Shown piece after piece: positions 29,142-47,569 of a DNA stretch of 64,000 nt. The notes beneath the pieces were generated by a model. The model made no database searches and was not told the DNA's origin. It worked only from the letters and a program-made list of their open reading frames with translations. Positions within the stretch are counted from its first letter, which is position 1. Every line of letters begins with the position of its first letter. This DNA comes from Pseudonocardia lacus (GTDB lineage Bacteria > Actinomycetota > Actinomycetes > Mycobacteriales > Pseudonocardiaceae). Location: contig NZ_JAHDTH010000010.1 in the NCBI RefSeq assembly GCF_018531445.1, forward strand, positions 1 through 64,000, given 5' to 3'. Made by a program: the position numbers and the translations under genes.

Positions 29142-29147
29142 GGCGCG

Positions 29148-30737
29148 CTAGTCCGCCGTCATCCGGATGCTCGTCGGGACCAGCTGCCCCGGCGTCGCGA
29201 ACTCCGCGCCCTTGCCGAAGGTCCGCGCGGAGACGGCCGCGAACGGCACGATGTCGGCGTTCGCGATGAGCCCGGCCTCGGCGTCCAGCCAGGCGGCACA
29301 GCCCTCCTCCGGGGTCAGCGCTGACGCGGCCGACACGGCGGCGTCGTAGGCGGGGTCGGCGATGGCGGAGAAGTTGGTGCCGTCGGGGGCCGGCGGCCCG
29401 GACAGGAACGGCACGAGCTGGTCGGGGGTGCTGACGTTGAGCGTGACCCAGGCGACGTCCCAGTCGCCCGCGCCGAAGATGGTCCCGGTCAGCGTCGTCT
29501 CGTTCTGGGCCTGCGCGGTGGCCGCCACCCCGATCGCCTTCCACTGCTGCACCGCGAGCTCGGCGGCCGCGTCGCCGCTGCTGCCGAGGTTGTTCTGGTA
29601 GAGGAAGACCAGCGACAGCGGGCGCCCGGCCTTGCTGCGCACGCCGTCGGCGCCGAGCGTCCAGCCCGCCTGGTCGAGCAGCGCGCCCGCGGCGGCCGGG
29701 TCGGTGGTGGGCAGCGCGCCGGAGACCGAGTCGCCGGGGCACCCGACCGGCGCGTTCATGGCCAGTGTCGTGGCCGGGACGCCCCGCCCGGCGGTGACGA
29801 CCTTCTGCAGCTCGGCCAGGTCGAGCGCCCGGGTGAGCGCCATGCGGACGGCGGGGTCGTCGGTGACCCGCCCGGGCGCGTGGTTGTACCACTGCTCCCC
29901 GGCCATGGCCGGGGTCTCGGCGACGAACAGCCCGGCCCCCGCGAGCCGTTCGGAGTCCGGCCCGGCGACCTGGGCGGCGTTCAGGCCGCCGGACAGCAGC
30001 AGGTTGGCCGCGGTCGTCTCGTTCTCCACGACCTTCATCACGACGGTCTCCGGCGTCCCCGGGGCCGCGGTCGTGGCGCCCTCGGGGCCCCACGCGTACC
30101 CCTGGCGCTTGGTGTAGGTGTAGCTGTCGCCGGGTGCGGCCTGCGTGAGCGCGAACGGCCCGGTGCCCGCGGTGGCGGTCTGCAGGGTGGACCGGTCGGC
30201 CAGGCCGCTGGGGCAGACCATCGGCAGGCCCGCCAGCCCGTTGAGCACGAACGGTGACGGCGAGGCCAGCGTGATCGTCACGGTGCGCGCGGCGTCGTCG
30301 GCCTGCGCCGTGGCACCCGGCGGGAAGAAGGTCCCCAGGAACGGGCTCTTGCTCTCCGGGTCGCCGACGAACGCCAGGTTGTCGGCCGCGACCGAGGCGG
30401 TGAACGGCGTCCCGTCCGAGCAGGTGATGCCCTCGTGGAGCGTGAGCGTCACCGTCGTGCCCTCGACCTGCCAGCTCTCCGCCAGCGCCGACCTGATCTC
30501 GCCGGTGTCGCCGTCGACGCTGACCAGCGGGTCGTAGGCGAACTGGGTGACGGTGAACAGCGAGGTGCCCGCACCCATCTGCGGGTCGAGGTTGCCCGGG
30601 TCCGAGGACAGCCCGAGGGTGAAGGTGCCGCCCTCGACGACGCCCCCGCCCGCGGCGGAGGACCCGCTGGAGCATCCGGCGAGTGCGACGACCAGGCAGG
30701 CGCTCAGGCCGAACCGGCCCGCGGTGGACAGCTTCAT
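29148..30737 (-). CDS. Peptide-binding lipoprotein (SBP family 5)
   Basis: A 529-residue extracytoplasmic solute-binding protein. The signal peptide ends in the lipobox LAGC (Cys22), so it should be a lipoprotein on the outer face of the membrane. It contains the family 5 features DPQMGAGTSLF near the start, ADNLAFV and VRMALTRALDLAELQKVV. Members bind di- or oligopeptides, nickel or similar ligands; the operon favours peptides. It lies between the beta-lactamase-fold peptidase gene (27-base gap) and the permease gene. Confidence 0.9.
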   Translation of the reverse strand: MKLSTAGRFGLSACLVVALAGCSSGSSAAGGGVVEGGTFTLGLSSDPGNLDPQMGAGTSLFTVTQFAYDPLVSVDGDTGEIRSALAESWQVEGTTVTLTLHEGITCSDGTPFTASVAADNLAFVGDPESKSPFLGTFFPPGATAQADDAARTVTITLASPSPFVLNGLAGLPMVCPSGLADRSTLQTATAGTGPFALTQAAPGDSYTYTKRQGYAWGPEGATTAAPGTPETVVMKVVENETTAANLLLSGGLNAAQVAGPDSERLAGAGLFVAETPAMAGEQWYNHAPGRVTDDPAVRMALTRALDLAELQKVVTAGRGVPATTLAMNAPVGCPGDSVSGALPTTDPAAAGALLDQAGWTLGADGVRSKAGRPLSLVFLYQNNLGSSGDAAAELAVQQWKAIGVAATAQAQNETTLTGTIFGAGDWDVAWVTLNVSTPDQLVPFLSGPPAPDGTNFSAIADPAYDAAVSAASALTPEEGCAAWLDAEAGLIANADIVPFAAVSARTFGKGAEFATPGQLVPTSIRMTAD

Positions 30738-30764
30738 GGGGTCATCCGTTCCGGTGGGGGCGGT

Positions 30765-32153
30765 TCAGGCGCCTGCGCGCCGGATGGCGCGGCCGAGGTG
30801 CAGGTAGAGGGCGTGACCGGTGCCGTCGTCACCGAGGAACACGTGCGGCATGTGCATGCCGCGGTCGGCCCGGAGGGGGATCAGCGCGTCGTCGCGGTGG
30901 GCGACCAGTTCGGTGCGCTCGACCCGCCCGCCCATCTCCACGAGCGCGCCCTTGGGCACCTGGTCGATCCAGATGCGGCCGTCGGCGTCCTGGCTGACGG
31001 TGAGGTCGAAGACCTCCGCCGAGTAGGTGCCGGTGAACCGCTCGGCGTCGATCCGCGGCGGCTGCGCGGGCGGGGCCGGCAGCGCGGGCAGCGCGATGCC
31101 GCCGAGCGCGGCGAGGGCGTGCCCGACCACGTCGCGGTAGAGGGAGATGGCGTCGCCGCCGTTGGTCAGCAGCGCCACCGCCAGGCCCGCCTCCGGCACC
31201 ATCCGCAGGAAGGCGGCCTGCCCGATGGTGTTGCCGTCGTGGCCGACGACCACCCCGCCGGGGTTGTCGAACCGCTCGAACCCCAGCCCCCACGAGGACC
31301 CCATGAGGCCGAGGTCGGGCAGGTCGACCTCGCGGGCCCGCATCCGGGCGGCCGTCCCCGGCGCCAGCACCTGGCCGCCGTCGGGCGCGCGGCCGTCGTC
31401 GAGGTGCATGCGCGCGAACCCGACGAGGTCGCGCGGGCGCATCGCCAGCATCGAGCCGGCCGGCGCGTTGGACCGGGCCATCGCCCACACCGGCGCCGGG
31501 ACGACCGCCGCGCCGGGCTCGGGCTCGACGTGCCCGACCGCGGCCCGGAACATGATCGCCTCGATCGCGCCCGTCGCCGCGTGGGTGAGGCCCAGCGGGG
31601 CGATGAGGCGCTCGCGCAGGCACGTGTCGAAGGGCTTGCCCCGCAGCACCTCGACGAGCCGGCCCAGCACGCAGTAGCCGGCGTTGTTGTAGGAGAACTG
31701 CGCACCGGGCGCGAACAGCTGCGGCACCTCCCGCAGGGCCGCGACCAGCTTCTCGACGCAGTCGTCGCCCGTCCCGGTGTCGGTGAAGATGTCGCCCTCG
31801 AACCCGGCGGTGTGGCTGAGCAGGTGCCGCACGGTGATCCGCGCGGCGGCGTCGGCGTCGGCGATCCGGAACTCGGGCAGGTGGACCCGGACCGGGTCGT
31901 CGAGCGCGATGACGCCCTCGTCCACCAGTTGCATGACCAGCGAGGCCGTCCACAGCTTGGTGACCGACCCGATCTGGAACACCGAGTCCGCGGTCGCCTC
32001 CACCCCGGTCGCCCTGCTGAGCACCCCGGCGGCCCCGTCGACCACCTCGCCACCGGACAGCACGGCCCACGCGGCCCCCGGTACGTCGTACTCGCGCAGC
32101 AGCCGCGGGACCCGCTCGTCGAGCCAGGACCGGACCGCGTCGAGGGTGCTCAT
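30765..32153 (-). CDS. Beta-lactamase-fold serine peptidase, first gene of the peptide operon
   Basis: A 462-residue class C beta-lactamase/D-aminopeptidase-like protein. Ser63-x-x-Lys66 lies in IGSVTKLWT, the second motif is SYNNAGY and the third is VVGHDGNT. A small beta-rich C-terminal domain follows (about 350-462). It is a clear paralogue of the C-terminal half of the fused S9 protein in the same operon (both have FEGDIFTDTGTGDDC-like text and the same C-terminal domain). No signal peptide is visible. A role in cutting D-amino-acyl or peptidoglycan-like peptides is inferred. Confidence 0.85.
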   Translation of the reverse strand: MSTLDAVRSWLDERVPRLLREYDVPGAAWAVLSGGEVVDGAAGVLSRATGVEATADSVFQIGSVTKLWTASLVMQLVDEGVIALDDPVRVHLPEFRIADADAAARITVRHLLSHTAGFEGDIFTDTGTGDDCVEKLVAALREVPQLFAPGAQFSYNNAGYCVLGRLVEVLRGKPFDTCLRERLIAPLGLTHAATGAIEAIMFRAAVGHVEPEPGAAVVPAPVWAMARSNAPAGSMLAMRPRDLVGFARMHLDDGRAPDGGQVLAPGTAARMRAREVDLPDLGLMGSSWGLGFERFDNPGGVVVGHDGNTIGQAAFLRMVPEAGLAVALLTNGGDAISLYRDVVGHALAALGGIALPALPAPPAQPPRIDAERFTGTYSAEVFDLTVSQDADGRIWIDQVPKGALVEMGGRVERTELVAHRDDALIPLRADRGMHMPHVFLGDDGTGHALYLHLGRAIRRAGA

Positions 32154-33065: not shown

Positions 33066-34607
33066 TCACCCCGGAAGGTGCAGGGCGAACCACAGCTCTG
33101 CGCGGGCGCCCGGGGAGTCCAGGTCGCGCCCCAGCAGGGCCGCGGCCTTGGCGATGCGGGCGCGCAGGGTGTGCCGGTGCACCCCGAGCCGGGCGGCGGC
33201 CGGGTCCCACTGGCCGTGGTGGGCCAGCCATTCGCGCAGCGAGTCGACGAGGTCGCCGCGGCGCTCGGCGTCGTGGCGCAGCAGCGGCGCGAGCACCGAC
33301 TCGGCGAACGCGGCGGCCTCGGCGGGGGCGACGAGGGCGGTGAGCCCGCCGGCGGCGAGGTCGGGGAACCGGACGGCCGCGCGGTCGTGGCGGTCCGCGG
33401 TGTCCAGCGCCCGCGTCGCCTCGTGCAGGGCACGCCCGAGCTCGGTCGGCGCGACGGGGCCGGAGACGCCGGCGCGGACGTCGCGCATCCGGGCGGCGGG
33501 CGCGAGCACGGCGTCCACGGCGCCGGGCGCCTCGTCGGACGCCACGGCGACGACGCGGTCGTCGAGTTCGGCGTGGAAACCGGGCGCGGCCCGGTCGAGC
33601 GCGTCGAGCAGCGCCGCCCGCCGCGCCCCGGACAGCCGCCCACCGAAGGCCACCACGACCACCGGGCCCCGCGGCAGCGCCCCCCAGGTGTCGGCGAGGA
33701 CCTGTTCGGCTCCGCAGTCGGGCGCGGTGACCAGGGTCCGCAGCACCGCGGTGCGCAGCCGCCGCTCCGCGCGTCCGACGGCGGCGGAGCGGGCGTGCGC
33801 GAGGCTCAGCACCGACACCGCGAACCCGATCAACTGGTGCTCCACCGGGGTGAAGGGCCGGTCGCGGCCGACGACCAGCACCGCGGGCGCGAGCAGCCGC
33901 ACTGGCTGCAGCACCACCTGCCCGGCGCCGTCGGCCACCGAGGCGCTGGAGCGCCCCGGGTGGTCGCGCACCTTCGCGATCTCCTCGGCGAGCCCGGCGG
34001 CGCGGCGGGCCGCGGAGCGCGGGGCGGCGTGCCGGACGCGGTCGTCGCCGTCGCTGATCAGCGCCCAGCCGCCGAGCCGCTCGGCCAGGGTGGCCAGCAC
34101 CTTCGCCGGCCCGCCGGTGTCGCGCCGCGTCGCGCCGGCCGGTCCGGCCGCGGAGATCCCGTCGGGCAGCGCGGCCGCGGTCAGCGCGCGGCGGGCCTCC
34201 TCGGTGCGCATCACCTCGGCGTGCCGGTCGGCGGCGTGCGCGGCGGCCAGCGCCTTGGTCAGGGCGAGGAACGGGGTCCGCTCCGGGACCTCCAGCAGGG
34301 GCAGGCCCTCCCGCTCGCAGGCCTCGACGACGGCGGCGGGGATCTCGTCGTAGCCCAGGCCGGTGCCGAACCCGAGCCCGGCCAGGCCGTGCGCGGCCAG
34401 CCTCGCGACGTACTCGCGCGGGCCGGTGCCGGAGTGCGGACCGAGCCCGATGGTCAGCAGGAGTTCGCCGCCGTCGAGGTAGGGGGTGGGGTCGTCGAGC
34501 TCGCTGGCGTGCACCCATTCGAGGGTCCGATCCAGATCTGCGGAACGACACGCGGCGCGGAGTCCGAGGCTGCGGTCCTCGCACAGGTCCCGGAGGGTGA
34601 GCGGCAC
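33066..34607 (-). CDS. PucR-family transcriptional regulator, divergent from the carboxylase operon
   Basis: A 513-residue PucR regulator. The N-terminal PucR domain (1-125) starts LTLRDLCEDRSLGLRAACRS and includes ELLLTIGLG; the C-terminal helix-turn-helix is AARLGVHRHTLRARIAKA. The family controls purine, allantoin or other nitrogen pathways in response to metabolites. GTG 34607 has GAGGAGG about 4 bases upstream. It is divergent from the molybdenum hydroxylase/PxpA/carboxylase operon, with a 129-bp gap holding repeated TCGGACAC boxes, so it very likely controls that operon. Confidence 0.85.
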   Translation of the reverse strand: MPLTLRDLCEDRSLGLRAACRSADLDRTLEWVHASELDDPTPYLDGGELLLTIGLGPHSGTGPREYVARLAAHGLAGLGFGTGLGYDEIPAAVVEACEREGLPLLEVPERTPFLALTKALAAAHAADRHAEVMRTEEARRALTAAALPDGISAAGPAGATRRDTGGPAKVLATLAERLGGWALISDGDDRVRHAAPRSAARRAAGLAEEIAKVRDHPGRSSASVADGAGQVVLQPVRLLAPAVLVVGRDRPFTPVEHQLIGFAVSVLSLAHARSAAVGRAERRLRTAVLRTLVTAPDCGAEQVLADTWGALPRGPVVVVAFGGRLSGARRAALLDALDRAAPGFHAELDDRVVAVASDEAPGAVDAVLAPAARMRDVRAGVSGPVAPTELGRALHEATRALDTADRHDRAAVRFPDLAAGGLTALVAPAEAAAFAESVLAPLLRHDAERRGDLVDSLREWLAHHGQWDPAAARLGVHRHTLRARIAKAAALLGRDLDSPGARAELWFALHLPG

Positions 34608-34736: not shown

Positions 34737-37106
34737 GTGACCGCCACCGCGCCGAAGTACGTCGGGACCAGCCTGCCGCGCAAGGAGGACCGCGCCCTGC
34801 TGACCGGGCGCGCGACGTGGACGGGGGACATCACCCCGGCCGGCGCGCTGCACCTGGCGCTGGTCCGCAGCCCGTTCGCGCACGCCCGGATCACCGGCAT
34901 CGACACGGCCGCGGCGCGCGAGCACCCGGGCGTGACCGCGGTGCTGACGGCCGCGGACGTCGACGGCGAGTTCCTGGCCGGCATCCCGTGCGGCTGGCCG
35001 GTCACCGAGGACATCCTGGTCCCCGACCACCGGCCGCTGGCGACGACCGAGGTCAACCACGTCGGCGACGGCGTCGCCGTGGTGCTCGCCACGAGCGAGG
35101 CCGCCGCCCGCGACGCCGTCGAGCTGGTCGAGGTGGACTACGAGGAGCTGCCCGCGGTCGTCGACGTCGCCGACGCGCTCGCCGAGGGCGCCCCGCTGGT
35201 GCACGAGGAGCTGGGCTCCAACCACTGCTACACCTGGCCGCTGGCCACCGGCGACGTCGACGCCGCGTTCGCCCGGGCCGACGTCGTCGTCAAGGGGACC
35301 TACCTGCAGCAGCGGGTGATCGCCTCGCCGATGGAGCCGCGGGCGGTCGTCTGCGTGCCCGACCCGGTCGGCGGCGGGTTCACCCTGTACACCGCGACCC
35401 AGGTCCCGCACTTCGTGCGCGACATCCTGGCCGCCTGCACCGGCATCTCCGACACCAAGATCCGGGTCGTGGCCCCGGACGTCGGCGGCGGGTTCGGCGC
35501 CAAGCTCAACGTCTACGCCGAGGAGTTCCTGGCCCTCGTGCTGGCCCGCCGGACCGGCAAGCCGATCAAGTGGACCGAGACGCGCTCGGAGCACCACCAG
35601 GCCACCACGCACGGCCGCGGGCAGGTCCAGGACATCTCGGTGGCCGCCACCAGTGACGGCAAGATCCTGGGCATGAAGGTGGAGCTGCTCGCCGACATGG
35701 GCGCCTACCTGCAGCTGCTCACCCCGGGCATCGCGGTGTTCGGCGCCTTCACCTTCTGCGGGCTCTACGACTTCGCCAGCTACTCGTTCACCTGCCGGGG
35801 CGCGTTCACCAACCTCACCCCGACCGACGCCTACCGCGGCGCCGGGCGCTCCGAAGCCGCGTACGGCCACGAGCGGATCATCGACGACCTGGCCCGCGAG
35901 CTGGGGATGGACCCGGCGGAGGTGCGGCTGCGCAACCTGCACCCGAAGTTCCTGGAGCCGCGCACGGTGCCCTCGGGGGTGCAGTACGACTCCGGCGACT
36001 ACGAGACCTGCATGCGCAAGGCGATGGAGCTCGTCGACTACGACGCCCTGCGCGCGGAGCAGCGGCAGCGCCGGGAAGCCGGCGAGAAGGTCCAGATCGG
36101 CATCGGGATCGGCAACTTCACCGAGTCCGGCGGGCTGTCGCCGTCGAAGGTGGCCGCCGGCGTGCGGCTGCAGTCCGGTGGCTGGGAGCAGGCCACGGTC
36201 CGGATGACGACGTCGGGCAAGGTCGAGGTGATCACCGGGACCTCGCCGCACGGCCAGGGCCACGAGACGGCGTGGGCGCAGATCGTCGCCGACCGGCTCG
36301 GGGTGCACCCCGACGACATCGAGGTCCTGCACGGCGACACCCTGATCGCCCCGTTCGGCCGCGACACCTACGGTTCGCGCAGCCTCGCCGTCGGCGGCAC
36401 CGCGGTGCACCTGGCCGCCGGGAAGGTGCTGGACAAGGCCCGGCTGATCGCCGCGCACCTGCTGGAGGCCGACGAGTCCGACCTGCGGTTCGAGGGCGGG
36501 ACGTTCTCGGTGGCCGGCACCTCCGGGCCGTCGGTGACCATCCAGGAGGTGGCGGGCGCGGCGTCGCTGGCGGCGAACCTGCCCGAGGGCATGGAGCCGA
36601 ACCTCACCGCCGACTCGGCGTTCGACCCGCCCAACTTCACCTGGCCGTTCGGCACCCACATCTGCGTCACCGAGGTCGACGTCGAGACCGGGTTCACCCG
36701 CATCCGCCGCTACGTCGCCGTCGACGACTGCGGGCTGGTGGTGAACCCGACCATCGTCGAGGGCCAGCTGCACGGCGGCATCGCCCAGGGCATCGGCCAG
36801 GCGCTCTACGAGCACGCGACGTTCGACGCCGAGGGCCAGCCGACCGCGGCCAACCTGGCGACCTACACCATCCCCACGGCGGTGGACCTGCCGAACTTCG
36901 AGCTGGAGCAGCAGGTCACGCTGTCGCCGACGAACCCGATGGGGGTCAAGGGCATCGGCGAGTCCGGGGCCATCGGGTCCTCGCCCGCGGTGGTCAACGC
37001 CGTCATCGACGCCCTGTCCCACCTCGGGGTCACCCACGTCGACATGCCCGCGACCCCGCAGGCCGTCTGGCGGGCGATCAAGGCCGCGACCGAGCAGGCT
37101 GGTTGA
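34737..37106 (+). CDS. Molybdopterin-binding hydroxylase large subunit (form II CoxL-like)
   Basis: A 789-residue protein of the xanthine dehydrogenase/CO dehydrogenase large-subunit family. The active-site loop near residue 365 reads AYRGAGR, the form II pattern, not the AYxCSFR of true CO dehydrogenase. Also visible are VGGGFGAKLNVYAEE and GVKGIGESGAIGSSP with the catalytic Glu. It should hydroxylate a heterocycle or oxidise an aldehyde. The FAD and 2Fe-2S subunits that normally complete the enzyme are not in this window. GTG 34737 is the first gene of a six-gene operon with PxpABC and biotin-carboxylase parts. Confidence 0.9.
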   Translation: MTATAPKYVGTSLPRKEDRALLTGRATWTGDITPAGALHLALVRSPFAHARITGIDTAAAREHPGVTAVLTAADVDGEFLAGIPCGWPVTEDILVPDHRPLATTEVNHVGDGVAVVLATSEAAARDAVELVEVDYEELPAVVDVADALAEGAPLVHEELGSNHCYTWPLATGDVDAAFARADVVVKGTYLQQRVIASPMEPRAVVCVPDPVGGGFTLYTATQVPHFVRDILAACTGISDTKIRVVAPDVGGGFGAKLNVYAEEFLALVLARRTGKPIKWTETRSEHHQATTHGRGQVQDISVAATSDGKILGMKVELLADMGAYLQLLTPGIAVFGAFTFCGLYDFASYSFTCRGAFTNLTPTDAYRGAGRSEAAYGHERIIDDLARELGMDPAEVRLRNLHPKFLEPRTVPSGVQYDSGDYETCMRKAMELVDYDALRAEQRQRREAGEKVQIGIGIGNFTESGGLSPSKVAAGVRLQSGGWEQATVRMTTSGKVEVITGTSPHGQGHETAWAQIVADRLGVHPDDIEVLHGDTLIAPFGRDTYGSRSLAVGGTAVHLAAGKVLDKARLIAAHLLEADESDLRFEGGTFSVAGTSGPSVTIQEVAGAASLAANLPEGMEPNLTADSAFDPPNFTWPFGTHICVTEVDVETGFTRIRRYVAVDDCGLVVNPTIVEGQLHGGIAQGIGQALYEHATFDAEGQPTAANLATYTIPTAVDLPNFELEQQVTLSPTNPMGVKGIGESGAIGSSPAVVNAVIDALSHLGVTHVDMPATPQAVWRAIKAATEQAG

Positions 37107-37137
37107 TCGCCGGGAGCACAGGGGAAGGAGAGACCCG

Positions 37138-37863
37138 ATGGTGGCCATCAACTGCGACATGGGCGAGTCGTACTCGATCTACCACTGCGGCGACGACGAG
37201 GGGATCATGCCCTGGGTGACCGTCGCCAACGTGGCGTGCGGGTTCCACGCGTCCGACCCCCGGGTGATGACCCGGACCGTGAAGCTGGCCAAGCGGCACG
37301 GCGTGAAGGTCGGGGCGCACCCGTCGCTGCCCGACCGGGAGGGCTTCGGGCGGCGCGAGATGAAGCTCGACCGCGAGGAGCTGACCGCCGCGGTCGTCTA
37401 CCAGATCGGGGCGCTGTCCGGGTTCCTGCGCGCCGAGGGCATGGAGCTCAACCACGTCAAGGTCCACGGCTCCCTCTACGGGATGTCCGCGCGTGATCCT
37501 GATGTTGCTGCCGCCGTCGCCGACGCCGCGGACGTCTTCGGCGCGCCCCTGATGGGCATGTCCGGCACCGTGCACGAGCAGGTGTGGGGGGAGCGCCAGG
37601 CGGGCTTCATCAGCGAGTACTACGCCGACCTCGACTACCGCGACGACGGCTCGCTGATCATCACCCGGGTGCACGAGGCGTTCGACCCGGCGCGGTCGGC
37701 CGAGCGGGCCCTGCGCGCGGTCACCGAGGGCGTCGCGATCTCGGAGAACGGCAAGGAGCTCGCGGTGCGCGCCGACGCGGTCTGCGTGCACTCCGACACC
37801 CCGAACGCGGTCGAGCTGGCCAGGGCCGTGCACGACGTGCTCAAGCCCCACCTGGACGACTGA
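37138..37863 (+). CDS. pxpA: 5-oxoprolinase subunit A family protein (LamB/YcsF)
   Basis: A 241-residue LamB/YcsF protein with the family landmarks INCDMGESYS, VANVACGFHASDP, KVGAHPSLPDREGFGRR and VKVHGSLYG. PxpA acts with PxpB and PxpC in ATP-dependent opening of 5-oxoproline. All three are in this operon, but a biotin carrier and carboxylase separate A from B and C. The true substrate may therefore be another lactam. The start ATG 37138 has AAGGAGAG upstream. Confidence 0.85.
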   Translation: MVAINCDMGESYSIYHCGDDEGIMPWVTVANVACGFHASDPRVMTRTVKLAKRHGVKVGAHPSLPDREGFGRREMKLDREELTAAVVYQIGALSGFLRAEGMELNHVKVHGSLYGMSARDPDVAAAVADAADVFGAPLMGMSGTVHEQVWGERQAGFISEYYADLDYRDDGSLIITRVHEAFDPARSAERALRAVTEGVAISENGKELAVRADAVCVHSDTPNAVELARAVHDVLKPHLDD

Positions 37864-37907
37864 CACCGCCCACGCCCGAGAAGCCGACGCCAGAGAAGGA
37901 GCCCGAA

Positions 37908-38153
37908 TTGCCGCGTCACGACGTCGTCTCCCCGATCCCCGGCGTGTTCTACCGCCGTCCCGACCCCGACAGCCCGCCGTTCGCCGAGGACGGCGGCGCC
38001 GTCACCGACGACTCGCCGATCGGGCTGGTCGAGGTCATGAAGTCCTTCCACCGGATCCCGGCCGGGGCGACCGGCACGCTCGTCGAGTTCCTGGTGGAGG
38101 ACGAGGACGAGGTGGACGCCGGACAGCCGGTGGCGGTGGTGGAGACGCCGTGA
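37908..38153 (+). CDS. Biotin carboxyl carrier protein
   Basis: An 81-residue biotinyl domain: VSPIPGVFYRRP, then GLVEVMKSFHRI with the biotin-accepting Lys in VMKS, then DEVDAGQPVAVVETP. The Ser after Lys departs from the usual AMKM, as seen in carriers of the PxpBC/urea-carboxylase-like group. The start is TTG 37908, chosen because AAGGAG lies about 7 bases upstream and the domain begins right after it. It should carry CO2 from the adjacent biotin carboxylase to a PxpB/PxpC-type transferase. Confidence 0.8.
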   Translation: MPRHDVVSPIPGVFYRRPDPDSPPFAEDGGAVTDDSPIGLVEVMKSFHRIPAGATGTLVEFLVEDEDEVDAGQPVAVVETP

Positions 38154-38163
38154 GCGTGGTGCT

Positions 38164-39519
38164 GTGAGACGGCTGCTCGTCGCGAACCGCGGCGAGATCG
38201 CCGTCCGGATCATCCGGGCCGCCCGCGACCTGGGCATCGACACGGTCGCGGTGCACTCCACGGCCGACCGGGAAGCGCTGCACACCCGGCTGGCCGACAC
38301 GGCGCTGGAGATCGGGCCGTCGCCCGCGTCGAAGTCCTACCTGGTCGCCGAGGCGATCCTGGAGGCGGCGCGGGAGTCGGGCGCCGACGCCGTGCACCCC
38401 GGATACGGGTTCCTGTCCGAGCGGGCGTCGTTCGCGGCCGCGGTCACCGGGGCGGGCCTGACGTTCGTCGGGCCGTCGGCGTCGACGATCGAGCGCATGG
38501 GCGACAAGGTCGCCGCCCGCGAGGTGGCCGCGGCCGCGGGCGTCCCGACCGTGCCGGGGACGCCCGGCGGGGTGGCCGGGGTCGACGCGGCGGTCGAGGC
38601 GGCGGGGGCGATCGGGTACCCGGTGATGCTCAAGGCCGCCGCGGGCGGCGGGGGCCGCGGCATCCGCGTGGTGCACGACGAGGACGCGCTGCGCGACGTG
38701 TTCGGGCAGGCCACCACCGAGGCGCGGAACGCCTTCGGCGACGGCGCGATGTACCTGGAGCGGTTCGTCGAGCGCGCCCGCCACGTCGAGGTGCAGGTCC
38801 TCGGCGACGGCTCGGCCGCGGTGCACCTGTTCGAGCGGGAGTGCTCGCTGCAGCGGCGCCGGCAGAAGGTCGTCGAGGAAGCGGTATCCCCGGGCATCAC
38901 CGAGGCCGTCCGCGAGCGGATGACGCGGGCGGCGGTCGACCTGTGCCGCGAGGTCGGCTACGCCTCGGCCGGCACCGTGGAGTTCCTCGTCGACGACGAG
39001 TCGCAGGAGTTCTTCTTCATCGAGATGAACACCCGCATCCAGGTGGAGCACCCGACGACCGAGCTGGTCACCGGCATCGACCTGGTCGCCGAGCAGCTGC
39101 GGATCGCGGCGGGCGAGCCGCTGCGGTTCGCCCAGGAGGACGTGCGGCGGCGCGGGCACGCGATCGAGTACCGGGTCTGCGCCGAGGACCCGGCCAACGA
39201 CTTCATGCCCCAGCCGGGCAGCGTCGGGCGCATCACCCTGCCCGGCGGGCCGTGGGTCCGTTGCGACACCTGGCTGGAGCCCGACGGCACCGTCCCGCCC
39301 TACTACGACTCGCTGCTGGCCAAGGTCGTCGTCTGAGGCGCGGACCGCGCCGAGGCGCTGGCCCGGTCGCGCCGGGCGCTGGACGAGCTCACCGTCGCCG
39401 GCATCCCCACCACCGCCGGCCTGCTGCGGGAGCTGGTGGACGAACCGTGGGTCGGGTCCGCCGACTTCCACACCAGGACCCTCGAACAGTGGCTGGCCGA
39501 TCGGAAGGAGACCGCATGA
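38164..39519 (+). pseudogene. Biotin carboxylase with an in-frame TGA stop
   Basis: The frame encodes a biotin carboxylase: RRLLVANRGEIAVRIIRAAR, VHPGYGFLSER, the ATP-grasp glycine loop KAAAGGGGRGI, RHVEVQVLGD, FIEMNTRIQVEHPTTE and YYDSLLAKVVV. TGA at 39334-39336 then ends it at 390 residues. The same frame continues with GADRAEALARSRRALDEL and runs to a natural stop at 39519, whose TGA overlaps the PxpB start. Homologues have Trp (TGG) at this point, so one G-to-A change accounts for it. The lost 60 residues finish the C-terminal domain. It may be a true nonsense mutation, a sequence error or a readthrough site. The start is GTG 38164. Confidence 0.85.
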
Positions 39520-40418
39520 GCGAGCTCGCCAGCGAGTCATCGACACGGGGCGCCCGGTACAGCTGGGGCGGCGACGAGTTCGTGTTCGTCGAGCTGGCCG
39601 AGGAGATGAGCCTGCAGGCCAACTTCAAGGCCATGGCCATCACCGGGCTGCTGCGGTCCGAGCGGCCGGACGGCGTCCTGGAGATCTGCCCGGCCAACGC
39701 CTCCTACCAGGTCCGCTACGACCCGGACGTGCTGGAGCCGCACGCCTTCCTGGCCCATCTCAAGGAGCTGGAGGACCGGGTCGGCGACGCGCTGGGGGTC
39801 ACCCTGGACTGCCGGGTCGTGGAGATCCCGGTGCTCTACCGCGACCCCTGGACCACCGAGACGCTGCTGCGCTTCCGCGACCGCCACCAGGACCCCGACG
39901 CCACCGACATCGAGTACGCGGCCCGGATCAACGGCTACGGCTCGGTCGAGGAGTTCATCGCGGTGCACTCCGGCTCGCCCTGGTTCACCTCGATGGTCGG
40001 GTTCGTGGCCGGGCTGCCGTTCAAGTACCAGATGGTGCCCCGGGAGCGGCAGATCCTGGTGCCGAAGTACCTGCGCCCGCGCACCGACACCCCCAAGCAG
40101 ACCGTCGGCTACGGCGGCTGCTTCTCCTGCATCTACTCGGTGCGCGGCGCGGGCGGCTACCAGATGTTCGGCATCACCCCGGCGCCGATCTACGACCCGA
40201 CCCAGACCAAGCCCGATTTCGCCGAGCACATGGTGTTCATGCGCCCCGGCGACATCGTGCGCTTCCGCCCGATCGACCGCGACGAGTACGACGACCTGGC
40301 GGCGAAGGCCGATGCCGGGCAGTTCCGCATCACCAACCGCCCGGTCGGGTTCGACCTGCAGCCGTTCCTGGACGACCCCGACGGCTACAACAAGCGCCTG
40401 CTGGAGGTTCTCGCGTGA
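39516..40418 (+). CDS. pxpB: 5-oxoprolinase subunit B family protein (allophanate hydrolase subunit 1/KipI)
   Basis: A 300-residue AHS1/KipI-family protein. Landmarks are NASYQVRYDP, IPVLY, the long INGYGSVEEFIAVHSGSPW stretch, FVAGLPF and VGYGGCFSCIYSVRGAGGYQ. It is longer than usual PxpB proteins by about 60 residues, mostly near the N-terminus and the middle. Together with PxpC it forms the carboxyltransferase-like half found inside urea carboxylase. ATG 39516 overlaps the stop of the carboxylase frame and its own stop overlaps the PxpC start. Confidence 0.85.
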   Translation: MSELASESSTRGARYSWGGDEFVFVELAEEMSLQANFKAMAITGLLRSERPDGVLEICPANASYQVRYDPDVLEPHAFLAHLKELEDRVGDALGVTLDCRVVEIPVLYRDPWTTETLLRFRDRHQDPDATDIEYAARINGYGSVEEFIAVHSGSPWFTSMVGFVAGLPFKYQMVPRERQILVPKYLRPRTDTPKQTVGYGGCFSCIYSVRGAGGYQMFGITPAPIYDPTQTKPDFAEHMVFMRPGDIVRFRPIDRDEYDDLAAKADAGQFRITNRPVGFDLQPFLDDPDGYNKRLLEVLA

Positions 40419-41389
40419 CCACGATCGAGGTCCGCAAGCCGGGCCTGTCCACCACCGTGCAGGACGGCGGCCGCTCCGGCTACTACCACCTGGGCATCCC
40501 GCCCTCGGGCGCGCTCGACCAGTACTCGCTGGCCTGCGCCAACGCCCTGGTCGGCAACCCGGGCGACGCCGCCGTGCTGGAGATCGTCTACATGGGACCG
40601 GAGCTGGCGTTCACCGGCCCGGCGACGGTGGCGGTGGCCGGCGCGACGATCGCGCCGAAGGTCAACGGCGACGAGCGCCCGGTGTGGGAGTCCTTCGACG
40701 TCGCCGAGGGCGACGTGCTCAGCTTCGACTACCTCAAGGCCGGGGCACGCGCCTACCTCGCGGTGGCGGGCGGGATCGACGTCGAGGAGAAGCTGGGCAG
40801 CCGCTCCACCTACGCGCTCGGCGCGCTGGGCGGGGTCGAGGGCCGCCCCCTCACCGAGGGCGACGTGCTGCCGGTCGGGTCCGGCCCCGCCGGGCGGGCC
40901 GGGCTGGTGCTGCCCGTCGGGCTGCGCCCGGCGCTGTCCAAGCAGGTCGAGGTCCGGGTCGTCATGGGCCTCTACGACCACCGGCTCACCGACCGCGGCC
41001 GGGCCGCGTTCCTCGACACCGAGTGGACGCTGACCCCGGTGGCCGATCGGATCGGCTTCCGCTACACCGGCGGCCAGCTGGAGACCGTCGACCGGGAGCC
41101 GCCGTTCGGGGCAGGCCAGGACCCGTCGAACATCGTCGACTCGCCGTACCCGATCGGCTCCATCCAGGTGCCGGGCGGGGTGGAGCCCATCGTGCTGCAC
41201 CGCGACGCCGTGTCCGGCGGCGGCTACATGATGGTCGCGACGGTGCTGTCGGGCGACCTCGACGTCGTCGCCCAGTCGGCGCCGCGGACGCGCACGAAGT
41301 TCGTGGAGGTCGACCTGGATACGGCGCTGCGGCTGCGGGCCGAGCGCAAGGAGCGGCTGGTCCGCATGCACGCCGCCCTGGACGGCTGA
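40415..41389 (+). CDS. pxpC: 5-oxoprolinase subunit C family protein (AHS2/KipA)
   Basis: A 324-residue AHS2/KipA-family protein: IEVRKPGLSTTVQDGGRSGYYHLGIPPSGALD, given here as a pattern only up to its key parts (GLSTTVQDGGR and GIPPSGALD). LAVAGGIDV, LGSRSTYALGALGG and IGSIQVPGG follow. It partners PxpB. GTG 40415 overlaps the PxpB stop by four bases (GTGA). This is the last gene of the operon; the next gene converges from the other strand after 12 bases. Confidence 0.85.
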   Translation: MTTIEVRKPGLSTTVQDGGRSGYYHLGIPPSGALDQYSLACANALVGNPGDAAVLEIVYMGPELAFTGPATVAVAGATIAPKVNGDERPVWESFDVAEGDVLSFDYLKAGARAYLAVAGGIDVEEKLGSRSTYALGALGGVEGRPLTEGDVLPVGSGPAGRAGLVLPVGLRPALSKQVEVRVVMGLYDHRLTDRGRAAFLDTEWTLTPVADRIGFRYTGGQLETVDREPPFGAGQDPSNIVDSPYPIGSIQVPGGVEPIVLHRDAVSGGGYMMVATVLSGDLDVVAQSAPRTRTKFVEVDLDTALRLRAERKERLVRMHAALDG

Positions 41390-43188: not shown

Positions 43189-44037
43189 GTGACGGCGCCG
43201 ATGAAGTACGCCCTGTACGCCCTGCACCGCGGTGCGAACGTGCAGCCGGACCGGCTCGCCGGGACGGCCCGGCGGGTGGAGGACCTCGGGTTCGAGTCGC
43301 TGTGGGTGGGCGATCACATCGCGCTGCCCGACGACGCACCCGACAGCTCCACCGAGCCCCGGCTCGAAGCGCTCACCGTCCTGACGTACCTGGCCGCGGT
43401 GACCGAGCGGGTCCGGCTCGGGGTGGGGGTGCTGGTGCTGCCCCAGCGCCAGCCCGTGCTGCTGGCCAAGCAGCTCACCTCGCTGGACGTGCTGTCGGGC
43501 GGGCGGCTCGTCGTCGGGATCGGCGTCGGGTACGTCGAGGCGGAGCTGGCGGCCTTCGGGGTCGGCCGGGCCGACCGGGCCGCGATGACCGACGAGCACC
43601 TCGACGTCGTGCTCGGGCTGTGGCGCCACGACCGCGACCACGACGGGCGCTTCGTGTCGCTGCACGGGGTCGTCCAGCACCCGGGGCCGGTCCAGCGCCC
43701 GCACCCGCCGATCGTGGTCGGCGGGCACGTGCGGGCGGCGATCGAGCGGGCGGCCCGGGTCGGGGACGGGTGGTTCGGGTGGGAGCTGACCCCGGACCAG
43801 GCCGGCGAGGCCGTCGCCCGGCTCGACGAGGCGCGCCGGCGGCTGCGGGGCGCCGACGCCCCCCGGCTGGAGATCACGATCACCCCGCCCGACCCGTTCG
43901 TCACCCCCGACGACGCCCGCCGCTACGCCGAGGCGGGCGTGGACCGGCTGGTCCTGGTCCCCGGCGAGATGACCGCCGCGGGCACCGACGCGGTGATCGA
44001 CCACGCCGCGGCCCACCTCCTCCGGCACGGGGCGTAG
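43189..44037 (+). CDS. Luciferase-like (LLM class, F420-type) oxidoreductase
   Basis: A 282-residue LLM-class protein of the TIGR03619-like F420 group: FESLWVGDHIALP, VRLGVGVLVLPQRQPVLLAKQ, LDVLSGGRLVVGIGVGY, HPPIVVGGH and AARVGDGWFGW. Such enzymes use F420 or FMN to oxidise or reduce small substrates. GTG 43189 or ATG 43201 may be the start. This is the last gene before the low-GC island. Confidence 0.85.
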   Translation: MTAPMKYALYALHRGANVQPDRLAGTARRVEDLGFESLWVGDHIALPDDAPDSSTEPRLEALTVLTYLAAVTERVRLGVGVLVLPQRQPVLLAKQLTSLDVLSGGRLVVGIGVGYVEAELAAFGVGRADRAAMTDEHLDVVLGLWRHDRDHDGRFVSLHGVVQHPGPVQRPHPPIVVGGHVRAAIERAARVGDGWFGWELTPDQAGEAVARLDEARRRLRGADAPRLEITITPPDPFVTPDDARRYAEAGVDRLVLVPGEMTAAGTDAVIDHAAAHLLRHGA

Positions 44038-44269
44038 CACGATGCGGGGTGAGCGAGACGACTCTCGCTCGACCAGTCAAGGCTCGCCTCAACACACTTT
44101 GACGCCCGGTGACGCCACGCGCACTCATGCCTCACCAGCATCGACTATGTCACTCGGAAGGAGCAGGAAGGACGGTGATCGCCCGCCGAGGGCCCACACG
44201 GCGCATGATCAGGGCTCACAGGGAAACCGAGCGACAGCCCTGATAGACTCGAACACTTGTTCCTCGTGG

Positions 44270-44308
44270 CACATGTTGTGGCCAGGGCCCCACGCGCCAC
44301 AACATGTG
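44270..44308. repeat. 12-bp perfect inverted repeat
   Basis: CACATGTTGTGG (44270-44281) and CCACAACATGTG (44297-44308) are perfect complements around a 15-base spacer. It could be an operator, a recombination site or an RNA hairpin. It lies about 190 bases upstream of the YjzC-like gene. Confidence 0.65.
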
Positions 44309-44443
44309 GGGGATGTCGGCCCCGTGCGGTATGATCGACACGAGCAAGCAAAGACCCCGACCGGGGTCTGACTGCCCAGTCGGGGCCGGAGTTGCCTGGT
44401 AAGCCTCTCCACCCTACAACGGGTTGTGGCTGGATGACGGTGT

Positions 44444-44484
44444 CCTCCCTCACCTGTGGCTGGTCGTCCAGCTCGGGAGGGAGG
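44444..44484 (+). promoter_or_regulatory. Hairpin covering the ribosome binding site of the YjzC-like gene
   Basis: CCTCCCTC (44444-44451) is complementary to GAGGGAGG (44477-44484), which contains the Shine-Dalgarno sequence 8 bases before ATG 44493. The 25-base loop has its own small stem (CTGG-TCGT-CCAG, 44459-44470). Folding would block translation, so this may be a translational switch. Confidence 0.45.
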
Positions 44485-44492
44485 TGTTGGCC

Positions 44493-44663
44493 ATGGCAAA
44501 GGGCAAGGGCATCAAGCCTGGGACTCCGGCGCCGAAGTCGGGACAGTATCGGCCGACTGGCGGCGGTTCAGAAGTGACAGCCATTCAGGGTAAGCCGCTG
44601 CCGCCATCGAGTGCGCCGGGTAAGACCTGGCAGCTCGTCGACAAGACCAAGCACAAGAAGTAG
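44493..44663 (+). CDS. YjzC-like small protein
   Basis: A 56-residue basic protein: KPGTPAPKSGQYRPTGGG, then GKPLPP and KTWQLVDKTKHKK. The KPG-APKSGQY opening and the GKPLPP...VDKTKHK ending match the YjzC-like family of small proteins of unknown function, which are often found in mobile regions. ATG 44493 is chosen over an upstream in-frame ATG (44424) because a strong GAGGGAGG site precedes it. A terminator hairpin follows at once, so it is a single-gene unit. Confidence 0.7.
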   Translation: MAKGKGIKPGTPAPKSGQYRPTGGGSEVTAIQGKPLPPSSAPGKTWQLVDKTKHKK

Positions 44664-44670
44664 TTGAGTC

Positions 44671-44711
44671 GGGCCTGATGGCGCTTCTACCGTCAAGGTG
44701 TCATCAGGCCC
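44671..44711 (+). terminator. Terminator hairpin after the YjzC-like gene
   Basis: GGGCCTGATG (44671-44680) and CATCAGGCCC (44702-44711) form a perfect 10-bp stem with a 21-base loop, starting 7 bases past the stop codon and followed by TCTCTC. Confidence 0.6.
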
Positions 44712-44739
44712 TCTCTCACGCCGGGAGCAGTGTCGGGAG

Positions 44740-44756
44740 CCTAAGCGTCGCTTAGG
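44740..44756. promoter_or_regulatory. 17-bp palindrome upstream of the unknown 220-residue gene
   Basis: CCTAAGCG-T-CGCTTAGG is a perfect odd palindrome about 150 bases before ATG 44906. A possible promoter for that gene is TTGTCA (44872-44877), a 17-base spacer and TAGAGG (44895-44900). The palindrome could be an operator; nothing else marks it. Confidence 0.4.
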
Positions 44757-44905
44757 AGGGGTTGCCTCGACTCCGTTGAAGGCGGAACTCGTTCGAGGTG
44801 CGTGCGAATTGCCTCTCAGGCGATTCGCTATCAGCATCGCAGATTGGTTCGCGCTAACGCATTCAGGCAAATTGTCAGATTACATGACGTACGTTAGAGG
44901 TCACC

Positions 44906-45568
44906 ATGACAGGCCAGCCGCTCGACGGCGCTAGGGCGCTACTAGCGGACAGCGCTTCTGAAATCGGAAAGGTTCGCGAACTGTTGCACTTTTCTCTCAA
45001 GCGCCGGAATGTGGCTGACGAAAGCGAGCTTGCTAAGATTCAGGTCAAGGTCAAGAACATACTTGAGAACCAGCGGTCCGCCTTGGAGTACATTGCGCAC
45101 GAGGCTGTCGGCCACTTTGGTGAGTCGGGAAAGCGAAGCTACTACCCGCTTGCTCCGACGCCATCTGAATGGCTGAAGGTCATGAGAAAGAATCTACCGG
45201 GTGTCGAGTCCTCCAGGCCAGACGTTACCGCTCTTTTCGAGAAGCATCAACCTTATCAACCTGGACATGAGTGGATGATGAAACTTTCCGCTCAAGTCAA
45301 CGATCTTAAGCACAAGCGGTTGGTTCCGCATGTACTGGATGAGATTCCATTCATTGATGTCGGACTGCCGGGCGGCATGAGTATCCGAGTTCCCGCTGAA
45401 CTGGCCTCGGAGAATGTAGATGTTGCGCCGGGTGTGGCCGTTAAGCGGATGACCGCCGTTCGCTGGACATTCGATGGAACGGATCTCGGAGTGAGGCGCA
45501 CACTTGACGAGGCGCAGGAAATTGTTACCGCAGTTGTAGACGATTTTGCGGTGTATCTCAACTGGTAA
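44906..45568 (+). CDS. Unknown protein of foreign composition
   Basis: A 220-residue soluble protein that I do not recognise. The N-terminal 75 residues are helical (SEIGKVRELLHFSLKRRN; AKIQVKVKNILENQRSALEYIAHEA). The C-terminal half has beta-strand character (PGGMSIRVPAELA; AVRWTFDGTDLGVRRTLDEA). The helix pair with ENQRSALEYIA is reminiscent of HEPN-like helical proteins found in defence loci, but no RxxxxH motif is evident, so this is only a hint. GC content near 50-55 percent and codon use differ sharply from the rest of the window, indicating recent transfer. GAGG lies before ATG 44906. Confidence 0.65.
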   Translation: MTGQPLDGARALLADSASEIGKVRELLHFSLKRRNVADESELAKIQVKVKNILENQRSALEYIAHEAVGHFGESGKRSYYPLAPTPSEWLKVMRKNLPGVESSRPDVTALFEKHQPYQPGHEWMMKLSAQVNDLKHKRLVPHVLDEIPFIDVGLPGGMSIRVPAELASENVDVAPGVAVKRMTAVRWTFDGTDLGVRRTLDEAQEIVTAVVDDFAVYLNW

Positions 45569-45687
45569 TCGAACAAGTAACGCCGAACGCCGACGTCTGC
45601 CGACCGGTGGGGTTGCACTCGCGTATGCCTTGCGGTTCCTCAGTAGCGTCTTGGCGTGCCGCTGTACTTCGTGAGATAGTCGGCGAC

Positions 45688-46896
45688 GTGGCGCCAGCAA
45701 CGACCGGACAGCGCATTGCTGCGTACCGTCGTCGACGAGGGCTTAGCCAGGCCGCGCTTGCAGGCTTGGTGGGGCGGTCCGAGTCGTGGCTTTCGCAGGT
45801 TGAGCGCGGAGTACGGTCGGTTGATCGTCTTTCGGTTCTGCTCGACATGGCGAACGTGCTTCACGTCGACGTGGAGGCCCTGACGGGTCGTTCGTGGCAG
45901 TACGCTCCGAACGGAACGACGCTCATCGACGATCTTGACAGCATCCGCCGGGTGCTTGTCCGCTATACCGCCTTGACCGGCGCGGTCGACAGTGATGACC
46001 CGCTGTCGGCGGACGCTCTGCACGCCCGCGCAGCGGACATCCACATGCAGTACCAGGCCGCGAATTACAGTCGGGTGATCCGGGAGCTGCCCGAGCTGCT
46101 CGTCGCCGCCGATCAGGTTCACATCGCCGCGAACGGCGACGGTGGGCAGCTCTTGGGCTACGTCTCGGTCTACGTGGCCGGTGCCAAGCTGTTGACCAAG
46201 CTCGGATCTGCCGACCTTGCGGCGGTCGCCGCCGACCGGGCCGCGATGACGGCCGGAACGCTCGACTCGTTCGCCGCGCAAGGCATGGCGATCTATCAGG
46301 TCGTGTGCGCGTTGCTGCGGTCGGACCGGACCGATGAGGCGGAGACATTGGCCGTCACGATGGCGGAGCGGCTGACTCCGCGCGTGCGCGCCGATGACCC
46401 GTCCCTGCTGTCGATTACGGGTGCGCTGTGGCTGATCGCGGCCGTGATCGCGGCTCGCCGGACCGACCGGGCACAGGCATGGGCGCGACTCGACCACGCC
46501 GAGACCCTCGCCGGAACACTCGGGACCGACGCAAACCATGCCTGGACCGCCTTCGGGCCGACCAACGTGGCGATCCACCGGGTGTCCGTCGCCGCCGAAC
46601 TCGGTGACCCAGCCGAAGCGCTCGCCGCCGCGAGTGCGGTCGACATCGGACGGCTGCCGCCCGGTTTGAGCAGTCGTCGTGCGCAGGTGAATCTTGATCT
46701 GGCATGGGCGCAGTCGCAGCGCAAGCGCGATGCGGAGGCAACGTTGCACCTGTTGGAGGCGGAGCGAGCGGCGCCGGAGGCGATCCGCTACAACGTGATG
46801 GCCCGTGAGACCCTGCGCGAGATGCTGGGGCGGCAGCGGAAGAAGCCTTCCCGGACGCTGACCGACCTGGCCGCCCGCGCTGGAGCCCTGGAGTAG
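45688..46896 (+). CDS. XRE-family regulator with TPR-like C-terminus
   Basis: About 402 residues. The N-terminus is an XRE helix-turn-helix (GQRIAAYRRRRGLSQAALA; SESWLSQVERG). The rest is helical and TPR-like, with ARAADIHMQYQAANYSRVI, AAVAADRAAMTAG and AEATLHLLEAERAAPEAIR. This layout is common in actinobacteria, where it often accompanies the small flavoprotein found next here. GTG 45688 (VAPATTGQRIAAY) is chosen because it starts just before the HTH; the frame is open from 45607. The flavoprotein gene begins 7 bases after the stop. Confidence 0.85.
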   Translation: MAPATTGQRIAAYRRRRGLSQAALAGLVGRSESWLSQVERGVRSVDRLSVLLDMANVLHVDVEALTGRSWQYAPNGTTLIDDLDSIRRVLVRYTALTGAVDSDDPLSADALHARAADIHMQYQAANYSRVIRELPELLVAADQVHIAANGDGGQLLGYVSVYVAGAKLLTKLGSADLAAVAADRAAMTAGTLDSFAAQGMAIYQVVCALLRSDRTDEAETLAVTMAERLTPRVRADDPSLLSITGALWLIAAVIAARRTDRAQAWARLDHAETLAGTLGTDANHAWTAFGPTNVAIHRVSVAAELGDPAEALAAASAVDIGRLPPGLSSRRAQVNLDLAWAQSQRKRDAEATLHLLEAERAAPEAIRYNVMARETLREMLGRQRKKPSRTLTDLAARAGALE

Positions 46897-46903
46897 CTAC
46901 ACC

Positions 46904-47464: not shown

Positions 47465-47476
47465 CCGATCATCGTT

Positions 47477-47498: not shown

Positions 47499-47569
47499 GT
47501 AGTCGCGTGCGTACTGCGAGTGCATATCAGCGGTTGCTTCTCCTGCGTCACCGACCAGGAGAACCAACC

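Follow-up and report, generated by a model that had tools for sequence, protein, structure and literature searches.

What does a molybdenum hydroxylase without its partner subunits do beside the separated domains of a urea carboxylase and a PxpA protein? The question is raised by a six-gene operon in a 64,000-nucleotide stretch of Pseudonocardia lacus DNA (contig NZ_JAHDTH010000010.1, positions 1 to 64,000, assembly GCF_018531445.1), referred to here in its entirety as the window. The operon encodes a CoxL-like hydroxylase large subunit, PxpA, a biotin carboxyl carrier protein (BCCP), the biotin carboxylase AccC, and the carboxyltransferase proteins AHS1 and AHS2, and a PucR-family regulator gene is divergent from it (Table 1). 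A sequence-only reading had listed these genes, and open reading frames, Pfam and NCBIfam searches agree with it on the positions and identities of all seven. It had also proposed that the hydroxylase makes a cyclic amide from a nitrogen heterocycle and that the remaining proteins open the ring with ATP. Given a conserved gene set and a conserved orphan hydroxylase, this remains the best reading of the locus, and the chemistry that it would entail is set out below.

A widespread five-gene core

A contig scan with the window AHS1 yielded 126 relatives, and the best 80 by AHS1 similarity were read. Together with loci from whole genomes and the window itself they make 122 distinct loci, five duplicates (L106, L108, L111, L113 and L114; L, G and C numbers are our handles for loci, genomes and contigs) having been removed beforehand. 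Counts refer to the 113 loci in which AHS1 and AHS2 both have at least 40% identity; the nine others (L126, L132-L137, L141 and L151) fall below that limit. The best-80 ranking biases hydroxylase frequencies towards close relatives, and the survey of 62 Pseudonocardia genomes described below was unranked.

PxpA, BCCP, AccC, AHS1 and AHS2 form a core that is widespread and conserved beyond the window. At the thresholds used, PxpA and AccC accompany AHS1 and AHS2 in 106 of the 113 loci. The sequence-only reading had named a lack of co-occurrence of AccBC with PxpBC in relatives among the things that would refute it, and this count does not refute it. Five of the seven incomplete loci lie at contig ends (L030, L031, L058, L118 and L119), one has AccC in two pieces (L121), and the seventh, L105, is considered below. 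The core set is found in Actinomycetota and in Alpha-, Beta- and Gammaproteobacteria. It is also carried by a plasmid of the haloarchaeon Haladaptatus salinisoli, where the genes are annotated as 5-oxoprolinase PxpA, acetyl-CoA carboxylase parts and carboxyltransferases.

The NCBIfam carrier model exceeds its cut-off in 28 of 396 and 27 of 398 sampled genomes, both of which are upper bounds. In the 398-genome sample 14 carrier matches exceed 100 bits, and 12 of the other 13 are in frames of 152-197 aa, like ordinary AccB. In the 396-genome sample, 20 of the 27 other genomes were fetched, and six of these 20 (L132-L137) show no AHS pair.

Two variant arrangements were seen. A second operon lineage (L107, L109, L110, L112 and L131) has the order PxpA-AHS1-AHS2-BCCP-AccC and lies beside a class III aminotransferase gene, and in L151 the carrier and AccC come after PxpB/AHS2 genes of 37-38% identity.

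An orphan hydroxylase tied to the operon

The first gene of the window operon encodes a molybdenum hydroxylase large subunit with the molybdenum cofactor domains and the AYRGAGR and GIGE motifs. AYRGAGRS is present in 23 of 25 rows, and the two misses are wrongly picked frames. The best match of solved structure is CoxL 8uem (659 bits). We take the AYRGAGR loop to be that of form II CoxL, distinct from the CO dehydrogenase loop. The protein shares large-subunit domains and motifs with the aerobic CO dehydrogenase/CoxL family; it differs from aerobic CO dehydrogenase in this loop, in its score against TIGR02416 (707 bits, cut-off 991.15) and in the absence of CoxM and CoxS at the locus.

The orphan state of this hydroxylase is conserved, and so is its link to the operon. 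The domain count of the window genome bears out the claim that it stands without FAD and iron-sulfur subunits: there are nine MoCoBD_1, seven FAD_binding_5 and seven Fer2_2 places, seven places hold all three, and a large subunit stands alone at C501, the window locus, and at C19. The sequence-only reading had proposed a search for the same gene order with linked small and medium subunits, and none turned up. CoxM and CoxS searches gave no match in the 23 loci holding CoxL at 60% identity or more, within flanks of 2.6-13 kb on each side, and positive controls were detected; linked CoxM/CoxS in relatives was rejected on this basis. Elsewhere, L142 has CoxS with a large subunit of 32% identity, and L044-L046 have an FAD subunit with a different large subunit.

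Linkage to the operon is strict in Pseudonocardia. The 62 genomes surveyed include 39 whose carrier passes the cut-off and 30 with a CoxL orthologue, defined by at least 76% identity (the next paralogue reaches 58%). For 29 of these 30, CoxL is followed on its own strand by the carrier match, which begins 734-915 bp downstream; the 30th, G041, has CoxL and carrier both at contig ends. Beyond the 30, a partial CoxL adjoins the operon on a 5 kb contig in G055 (L108). Chance adjacency is ruled out by the 29 of 30. A second association occurs in family f19, which belongs to a different actinobacterial class and shares only the phylum: at L121-L129 a CoxL of 64-76% identity lies beside an operon of different gene order, in which AccC, where the contig includes it, is divergent.

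Trees indicate how this came about. In a tree of 34 large subunits, 15 actinobacterial operon CoxLs form one clade (support 100/100), in which the ten rows of the Pseudonocardia group are nested among the five from f19. The sister group (pair 100/99) consists of seven f19 CoxLs in sets with CoxM, six of which also have CoxS in the stretch read. Since the sister group consists of such sets, the orphan seems to be descended from a normal three-subunit enzyme. In the AHS1+AHS2 tree, the Pseudonocardia CoxL-type operons cluster with operons that carry a diiron enzyme instead (9 rows, 100/100; see below), and a single clade of nine CoxL-linked operons is rejected (p-AU 0.0005). One hydroxylase clade is therefore joined to two operon lineages. 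A proteobacterial locus, L139, also has a CoxL beside the operon (3616-5994, minus strand, 44% identity), which falls elsewhere in the tree on long branches; about 130 kb separate it from the nearest FAD-subunit gene. The surroundings of L139 include a sugar-type ABC transporter, a class III aminotransferase gene and, as labeled from sequence reading, a glutamine-synthetase-like gene.

Subunits for the orphan could come from elsewhere in the genome. Nine f19 genomes have large/FAD subunit counts of 3/2, 5/4, 3/2, 3/2, 4/3, 3/1, 4/3, 4/3 and 5/4, that is, one surplus large subunit each and two in the fragmented G245. All nine thus hold at least one FAD-subunit gene elsewhere, so subunit sharing is possible. 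Large subunits without adjacent FAD or iron-sulfur genes were also seen, within the stretch read, at L201 (G000:C19) and L191 (G007:C1).

A diiron enzyme in the same slot

The sequence-only reading missed an alternative occupant of the hydroxylase position. A diiron enzyme of toluene-monooxygenase type takes this place in 14 of the 113 loci, which belong to Amycolatopsis, Saccharopolyspora, Streptomyces and Pseudonocardia. The enzyme resembles toluene-4-/o-xylene monooxygenase and, being a diiron enzyme, is unrelated to the molybdenum hydroxylase. At L052 all six parts were identified (TmoA-type, TmoB, effector, TmoE-type, reductase and Rieske), and its TmoA-type protein matches 1t0q with 731 bits over residues 1-493 of 498. 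A tautomerase-family gene and a Polyketide_cyc2 gene come after these in L052 and have relatives in most diiron-type loci. CoxL is present in 23 and TmoA in 14 of the 113 loci, with no overlap. The strongest argument for hydroxylation as the step that feeds ring opening is that two unrelated hydroxylases precede one and the same carboxylase/hydrolase set.

The diiron-type operons are headed by a 235 aa protein (u21; L052 2321-3028 and homologues) for which no Pfam or NCBIfam match was found, and its structural model is poor (mean pLDDT 52.7).

Relation to urea carboxylase and 5-oxoprolinase

The sequence-only reading described the operon as a split urea carboxylase. Part of this description stands: biotin carboxylase, carrier, AHS2 and AHS1 are the domains of the urea carboxylase of urea amidolyase. 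The best match of solved structure to AHS2 is 3va7 (161 bits), a yeast urea carboxylase structure, and 5i8i (Urea Amidolyase) is also among the best. AHS1 and AHS2 score higher as urea carboxylase (116.3 and 223.4 bits) than as PxpB and PxpC (75.7 and 191.9 bits). Nevertheless, in urea amidolyase the biotin carboxylase, carboxyltransferase and BCCP are in a single chain, whereas here they are separate genes, and AccC (492.6 bits), AHS1 and AHS2 are each below the TIGR02712 urea carboxylase cut-off of 1303.85. In the AHS1 tree, 17 operon rows including the archaeal one form one branch (98/96); the outside rows are six of PxpB type and a single urea carboxylase domain, and the latter falls outside the operon branch.

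The companion genes differ as well. At the one uca locus opened, UAAP1, UAAP2, uca and atzF lie together. Neither UAAP1 nor UAAP2 has a match in the 161 scanned regions, and the matches of AtzF, in 10 operon loci, are only amidase-level at 30-37% identity. The idea of a literal split urea carboxylase is rejected on the model scores, the UAAP/AtzF search of these regions and an AHS1 clade separate from the one urea carboxylase row. The functional version of the idea is that AccC, BCCP, AHS1 and AHS2 carboxylate urea or guanidine for nitrogen, the hydroxylase being incidental or releasing urea-like compounds. The MumL protein of Acinetobacter baumannii is a LamB/YcsF member. The mumTLUHC operon of this species is the nearest studied one and resembles ours by description in having a putative biotin carboxylase and an allophanate-hydrolase homologue, and differs in having an NRAMP transporter and no hydroxylase (PMC5050338). 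It was interpreted as serving urea use: mumC, for the putative biotin carboxylase, was needed for urea as nitrogen source, whereas a mumH mutant still used urea (PMC5050338). PxpA, which a urea pathway would not need, is in nearly every complete set. Together with the lack of UAAP matches in the scanned regions, the separate AHS1 branch and the urea use of the mumH mutant, this makes a urea or guanidine function decidedly unlikely.

The other obvious comparison is PxpABC, which opens a lactam with ATP (PMC13274462). The operon shares with it PxpA and two AHS proteins and adds AccC and BCCP. An ordinary 5-oxoprolinase acting on pyroglutamate, in which the biotin parts merely boost or regulate, would fit a PxpA that scores 267.5 against the NF003814 cut-off of 226, and would fit L105 (Pseudomonas flavescens, 8823-11799), where an operon-type PxpA is followed directly by AHS1-AHS2 without AccBC. 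Corynebacterium glutamicum, moreover, requires pxpTABC for growth on 5-oxoproline, with no biotin genes in that operon as described in the accessible text (PMC13274462). The AHS proteins argue otherwise. AHS1 is far below the PxpB cut-off (TIGR00370, 145.55) and AHS2 far below that for PxpC (NF045499, 500), so the label PxpBC, used in the earlier reading, was loose. A second CT_C_D gene elsewhere in the genome (C47) is nearer to PxpB, with 108.9 bits on the 183 aa tested, itself below the cut-off, and a PxpB-type gene lies beside the operon in 7 of 113 loci. Biotin synthesis genes flank the operon in several lineages, and glutamate as product would require neither GabT nor a hydroxylase. A plain 5-oxoprolinase is therefore decidedly unlikely.

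The biotin part

Judging from motifs and neighbours, the biotin part is probably genuine. The window carrier has the biotinylatable sequence EVMKSF; the MK motif is present in all 106 carrier-labeled proteins (duplicate loci included), and 105 of them have E three residues before K (E-x-M-K). Neighbouring genes were compared, by one-sided Fisher tests, with 39 control regions at round coordinates in the surveyed genomes, unmatched for gene type. Queries were taken from operon loci, which match by construction, and values without the query loci are given also; the loci are not independent. Of the 113 loci, 20 have BioB, BioA or BioF in their flanks, against 0 of 39 controls (p 0.0016); without the two query-source loci the count is 18 of 111 (p 0.003). 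The 20 loci comprise 11 from Burkholderia (one lineage), one from Amycolatopsis, three from Streptomyces, two from Pseudonocardia genomes and three others (actinobacterial or other metagenome-assembled genomes). The operon genes of L115 have BioB among them, and at L139 a BioY-like transporter, labeled from sequence reading, follows AHS2.

Neighbouring genes and a candidate substrate

Class III aminotransferase genes are neighbours of 16 of 113 operons and of none of the 39 control regions (p 0.006; without query loci 12 of 109, p 0.021), and semialdehyde or aldehyde dehydrogenase genes of 10 of 113 and none of the 39 (p 0.046). Some score over NCBIfam cut-offs for enzymes of GABA breakdown. 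L092 encodes a GABA transaminase (PRK07495, 796 bits, cut-off 724) and a succinate-semialdehyde dehydrogenase (SSADH; 722 bits, cut-off 646). L127, next to a CoxL-type operon, has a GABA transaminase (558.5, cut-off 506.65) and an SSADH just under the cut-off (644 against 646), and the diiron-type L117 has an SSADH-like gene below it (527).

Other aminotransferases are less clear. The one beside a Pseudonocardia operon (L034) is of a different subtype and reaches no cut-off; its best matches of solved structure are putrescine aminotransferase 6gwi (298 bits) and a 4-aminobutyrate transaminase (287 bits). That at L139 is closest to 4-aminobutyrate transaminases (561 bits). Since these matches diverge, they do not decide the substrate. 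The genes at L092, L127 and L117 are a lead towards a gamma-lactam that yields GABA or succinic semialdehyde. A gamma-lactam such as 2-pyrrolidinone (for example from 1-pyrroline), giving GABA, is the favoured substrate, though taken by itself this choice is rather improbable. Pyrrole as substrate of the diiron-type operons is a guess.

Lactam chemistry has a further echo in the flanks. HyuA-type genes lie near 6 of 113 operons (L064, L101, L102, L124, L144 and L149), and the copy at L101 is closest to caprolactamase subunit alpha. Caprolactamase, CapAB, is made up of protein families other than those of the operon. It offers a precedent for lactam opening that requires ATP and bicarbonate, with a carboxylated lactim discussed as one option; no biotin domain is reported for CapAB in the text available (PMC8453981).

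Proposed pathway

We propose that the operon is catabolic for a nitrogen heterocycle, by hydroxylation to a lactam, biotin-dependent N-carboxylation and hydrolysis by PxpA, and we hold this to be evenly poised between right and wrong. Molybdenum hydroxylases oxidise cyclic iminium compounds to lactams, as is known from aldehyde oxidase. In the proposed pathway the lone CoxL-type hydroxylase would oxidise a cyclic imine or N-heteroaromatic at the carbon adjoining nitrogen, giving a lactam, and would pass its electrons to FAD and iron-sulfur subunits borrowed from a paralogue, or to another acceptor. AccC, with ATP and bicarbonate, would form carboxybiotin on the carrier, and AHS1/AHS2 would pass the carboxyl group on to the nitrogen of the lactam, in the way that urea carboxylase acts on urea; N-carboxylation is suggested, by analogy, because AHS1/AHS2 are related to the carboxyltransferase domain of that enzyme. 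This would weaken the amide, and PxpA would hydrolyse the N-carboxylactam, in the role of allophanate hydrolase. The product would lose CO2 to give an omega-amino acid, which the class III aminotransferase and aldehyde dehydrogenase found beside a minority of relatives could process further. More tentatively, and with some doubt, the core may represent a new class of lactamases that work like urea amidolyase, with catalytic CO2, and are fed by interchangeable ring hydroxylases, among them the orphan CoxL as a xanthine-oxidase-family large subunit that would have lost FAD and iron-sulfur genes of its own.

Several observations weigh against this proposal. Neither hydroxylase is present in 76 of the 113 operons, so the core set works without one, and three genomes (G011, G026 and G039) each have operons of both the CoxL and the diiron type, an indication that there is more than one substrate. 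L105 dispenses with AccBC. Orphan large subunits are not special to the operon in Pseudonocardia, since in six genomes MoCoBD_1 places outnumber FAD_binding_5 places by 4 to 9 and the window genome has a second orphan at C19. In G137 a complete CoxS-CoxL-CoxM set (L199 2371-6226, minus strand), beyond the L129 stretch, lies about 7.5 kb from the operon CoxL, and its own large subunit is 44% identical to the window CoxL; L060, which has no close CoxL orthologue, has a complete Cox set about 6 kb from the operon. Some CoxL copies are interrupted, by a TAG in G009 and by division into two pieces in L038 and L123, and the window AccC contains a stop. The dehydrogenase excess is gone without query loci (5 of 108, p 0.21); GabT flanks 5 and GabD 6 of the 113 loci, and the window operon has neither in its flanks. 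The nearest studied operon was assigned to urea, as noted above, and no biochemistry was found for the operon clade.

The absence of a hydroxylase from most operons also favours another explanation, in which hydroxylase and carboxylase have different substrates within one broader pathway, the carboxylase acting on a non-lactam amide or giving a carboxylated product that is not hydrolysed. The transporters that adjoin the operon vary between loci, as this explanation would allow. Strict CoxL adjacency in Pseudonocardia with a second association in f19, and PxpA in nearly every complete set, are against it, and it is unlikely.

With regard to precedents for the proposed lactam pathway, Lombard and Moreira described pairs of separate urea-carboxyltransferase-like genes, with no functional data in the text available (PMC3199775). 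No report of the five-gene set as a biotin-dependent lactam-opening system was found in the open-licence literature.

The window locus and its in-frame stop

The operon genes are closely packed. AccC/AHS1 and AHS1/AHS2 overlap by 4 bp, and the other intergenic gaps are 10 to 44 bp, which is operon-like. The closest named locus is that of Pseudonocardia humida (L026), where the operon is uninterrupted and the hydroxylase, PxpA, AHS1 and AHS2 proteins are 92-94% identical to those of the window. PucR adjoins the operon in several Pseudonocardia loci.

Table 1. Features of the operon locus in the Pseudonocardia lacus window.
Feature	Position	Strand	Basis
PucR-family regulator, divergent	33066-34607	-	PucR PF07905, 85 bits; HTH_30 PF13556, 64 bits
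CoxL-like Mo hydroxylase large subunit, 789 aa, GTG start	34737-37106	+	Ald_Xan_dh_C PF01315, MoCoBD_1 PF02738, MoCoBD_2 PF20256
PxpA / LamB-YcsF protein	37138-37863	+	PF03746, 289.5 bits; NF003814, 267.5 (cut-off 226); aligned with six relatives
Short biotin carrier (BCCP), TTG start, EVMKSF biotinylation motif	37908-38153	+	Biotin_lipoyl PF00364; NF005457, 110.7 (cut-off 87)
Biotin carboxylase AccC, interrupted by TGA	38164-39519	+	Three biotin carboxylase Pfam domains; Biotin_carb_C and NF009471 match both halves
In-frame TGA within AccC	39334-39336	+	Sequence; alignment with 73 relatives
AHS1 (carboxyltransferase subdomains C and D)	39516-40418	+	CT_C_D PF02682, 125 bits
AHS2 (carboxyltransferase subdomains A and B)	40415-41389	+	CT_A_B PF02626, 281 bits

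The sequence-only reading made no mention of the in-frame TGA, which leaves the window copy of the biotin carboxylase gene interrupted. Residues 1-390, before the TGA, match Biotin_carb_C as far as its positions 1-56, and the match resumes at positions 58-108 with the 59 residues that follow, so a single codon is affected. Among the 73 relatives aligned, which come from the first 80 loci, this column holds W in 41, H in 21, F in 8 and S, L and T in one each, and a stop in none. The window copy is thus either mutated or mis-sequenced, both being possible in a draft assembly of 501 contigs, and the window's own operon may be damaged. If the TGA is real, the operon would be decaying and the set inactive in the source strain, which is compatible with any other explanation of its function. 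The absence of a stop from all aligned relatives marks this copy as exceptional, whereas the remaining frames are open with nearly full-length family matches, and one wrong base would suffice; decay is possible but on the doubtful side.

Elsewhere in the window, a probable peptide-uptake cluster (18374-32153, minus strand) encodes SBP_bac_5, an OppB-type permease, a permease-ABC ATPase fusion of 654 aa, an MR_MLE enolase-family protein, a beta-lactamase-family protein and a PucR-HTH/GAF regulator. A gene at 22118-25423 (minus strand) encodes a 1101 aa fusion of a prolyl-oligopeptidase (Peptidase_S9) and a Beta-lactamase-family domain. Positions 44001-48000 have a GC content of 0.649, against 0.72-0.77 in the rest of the window, and few genes are called there.

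Significance

The carrier's NCBIfam model and the best carboxylase model are named acetyl-CoA carboxylase, and the PxpA model is named 5-oxoprolinase. If the proposed pathway is correct, a widespread gene set is misnamed, and there would be a second chemical route for opening unreactive lactams, for which the hydroxylase supplies direct test substrates. The orphan hydroxylase, conserved across two classes, poses a testable question of electron transfer.

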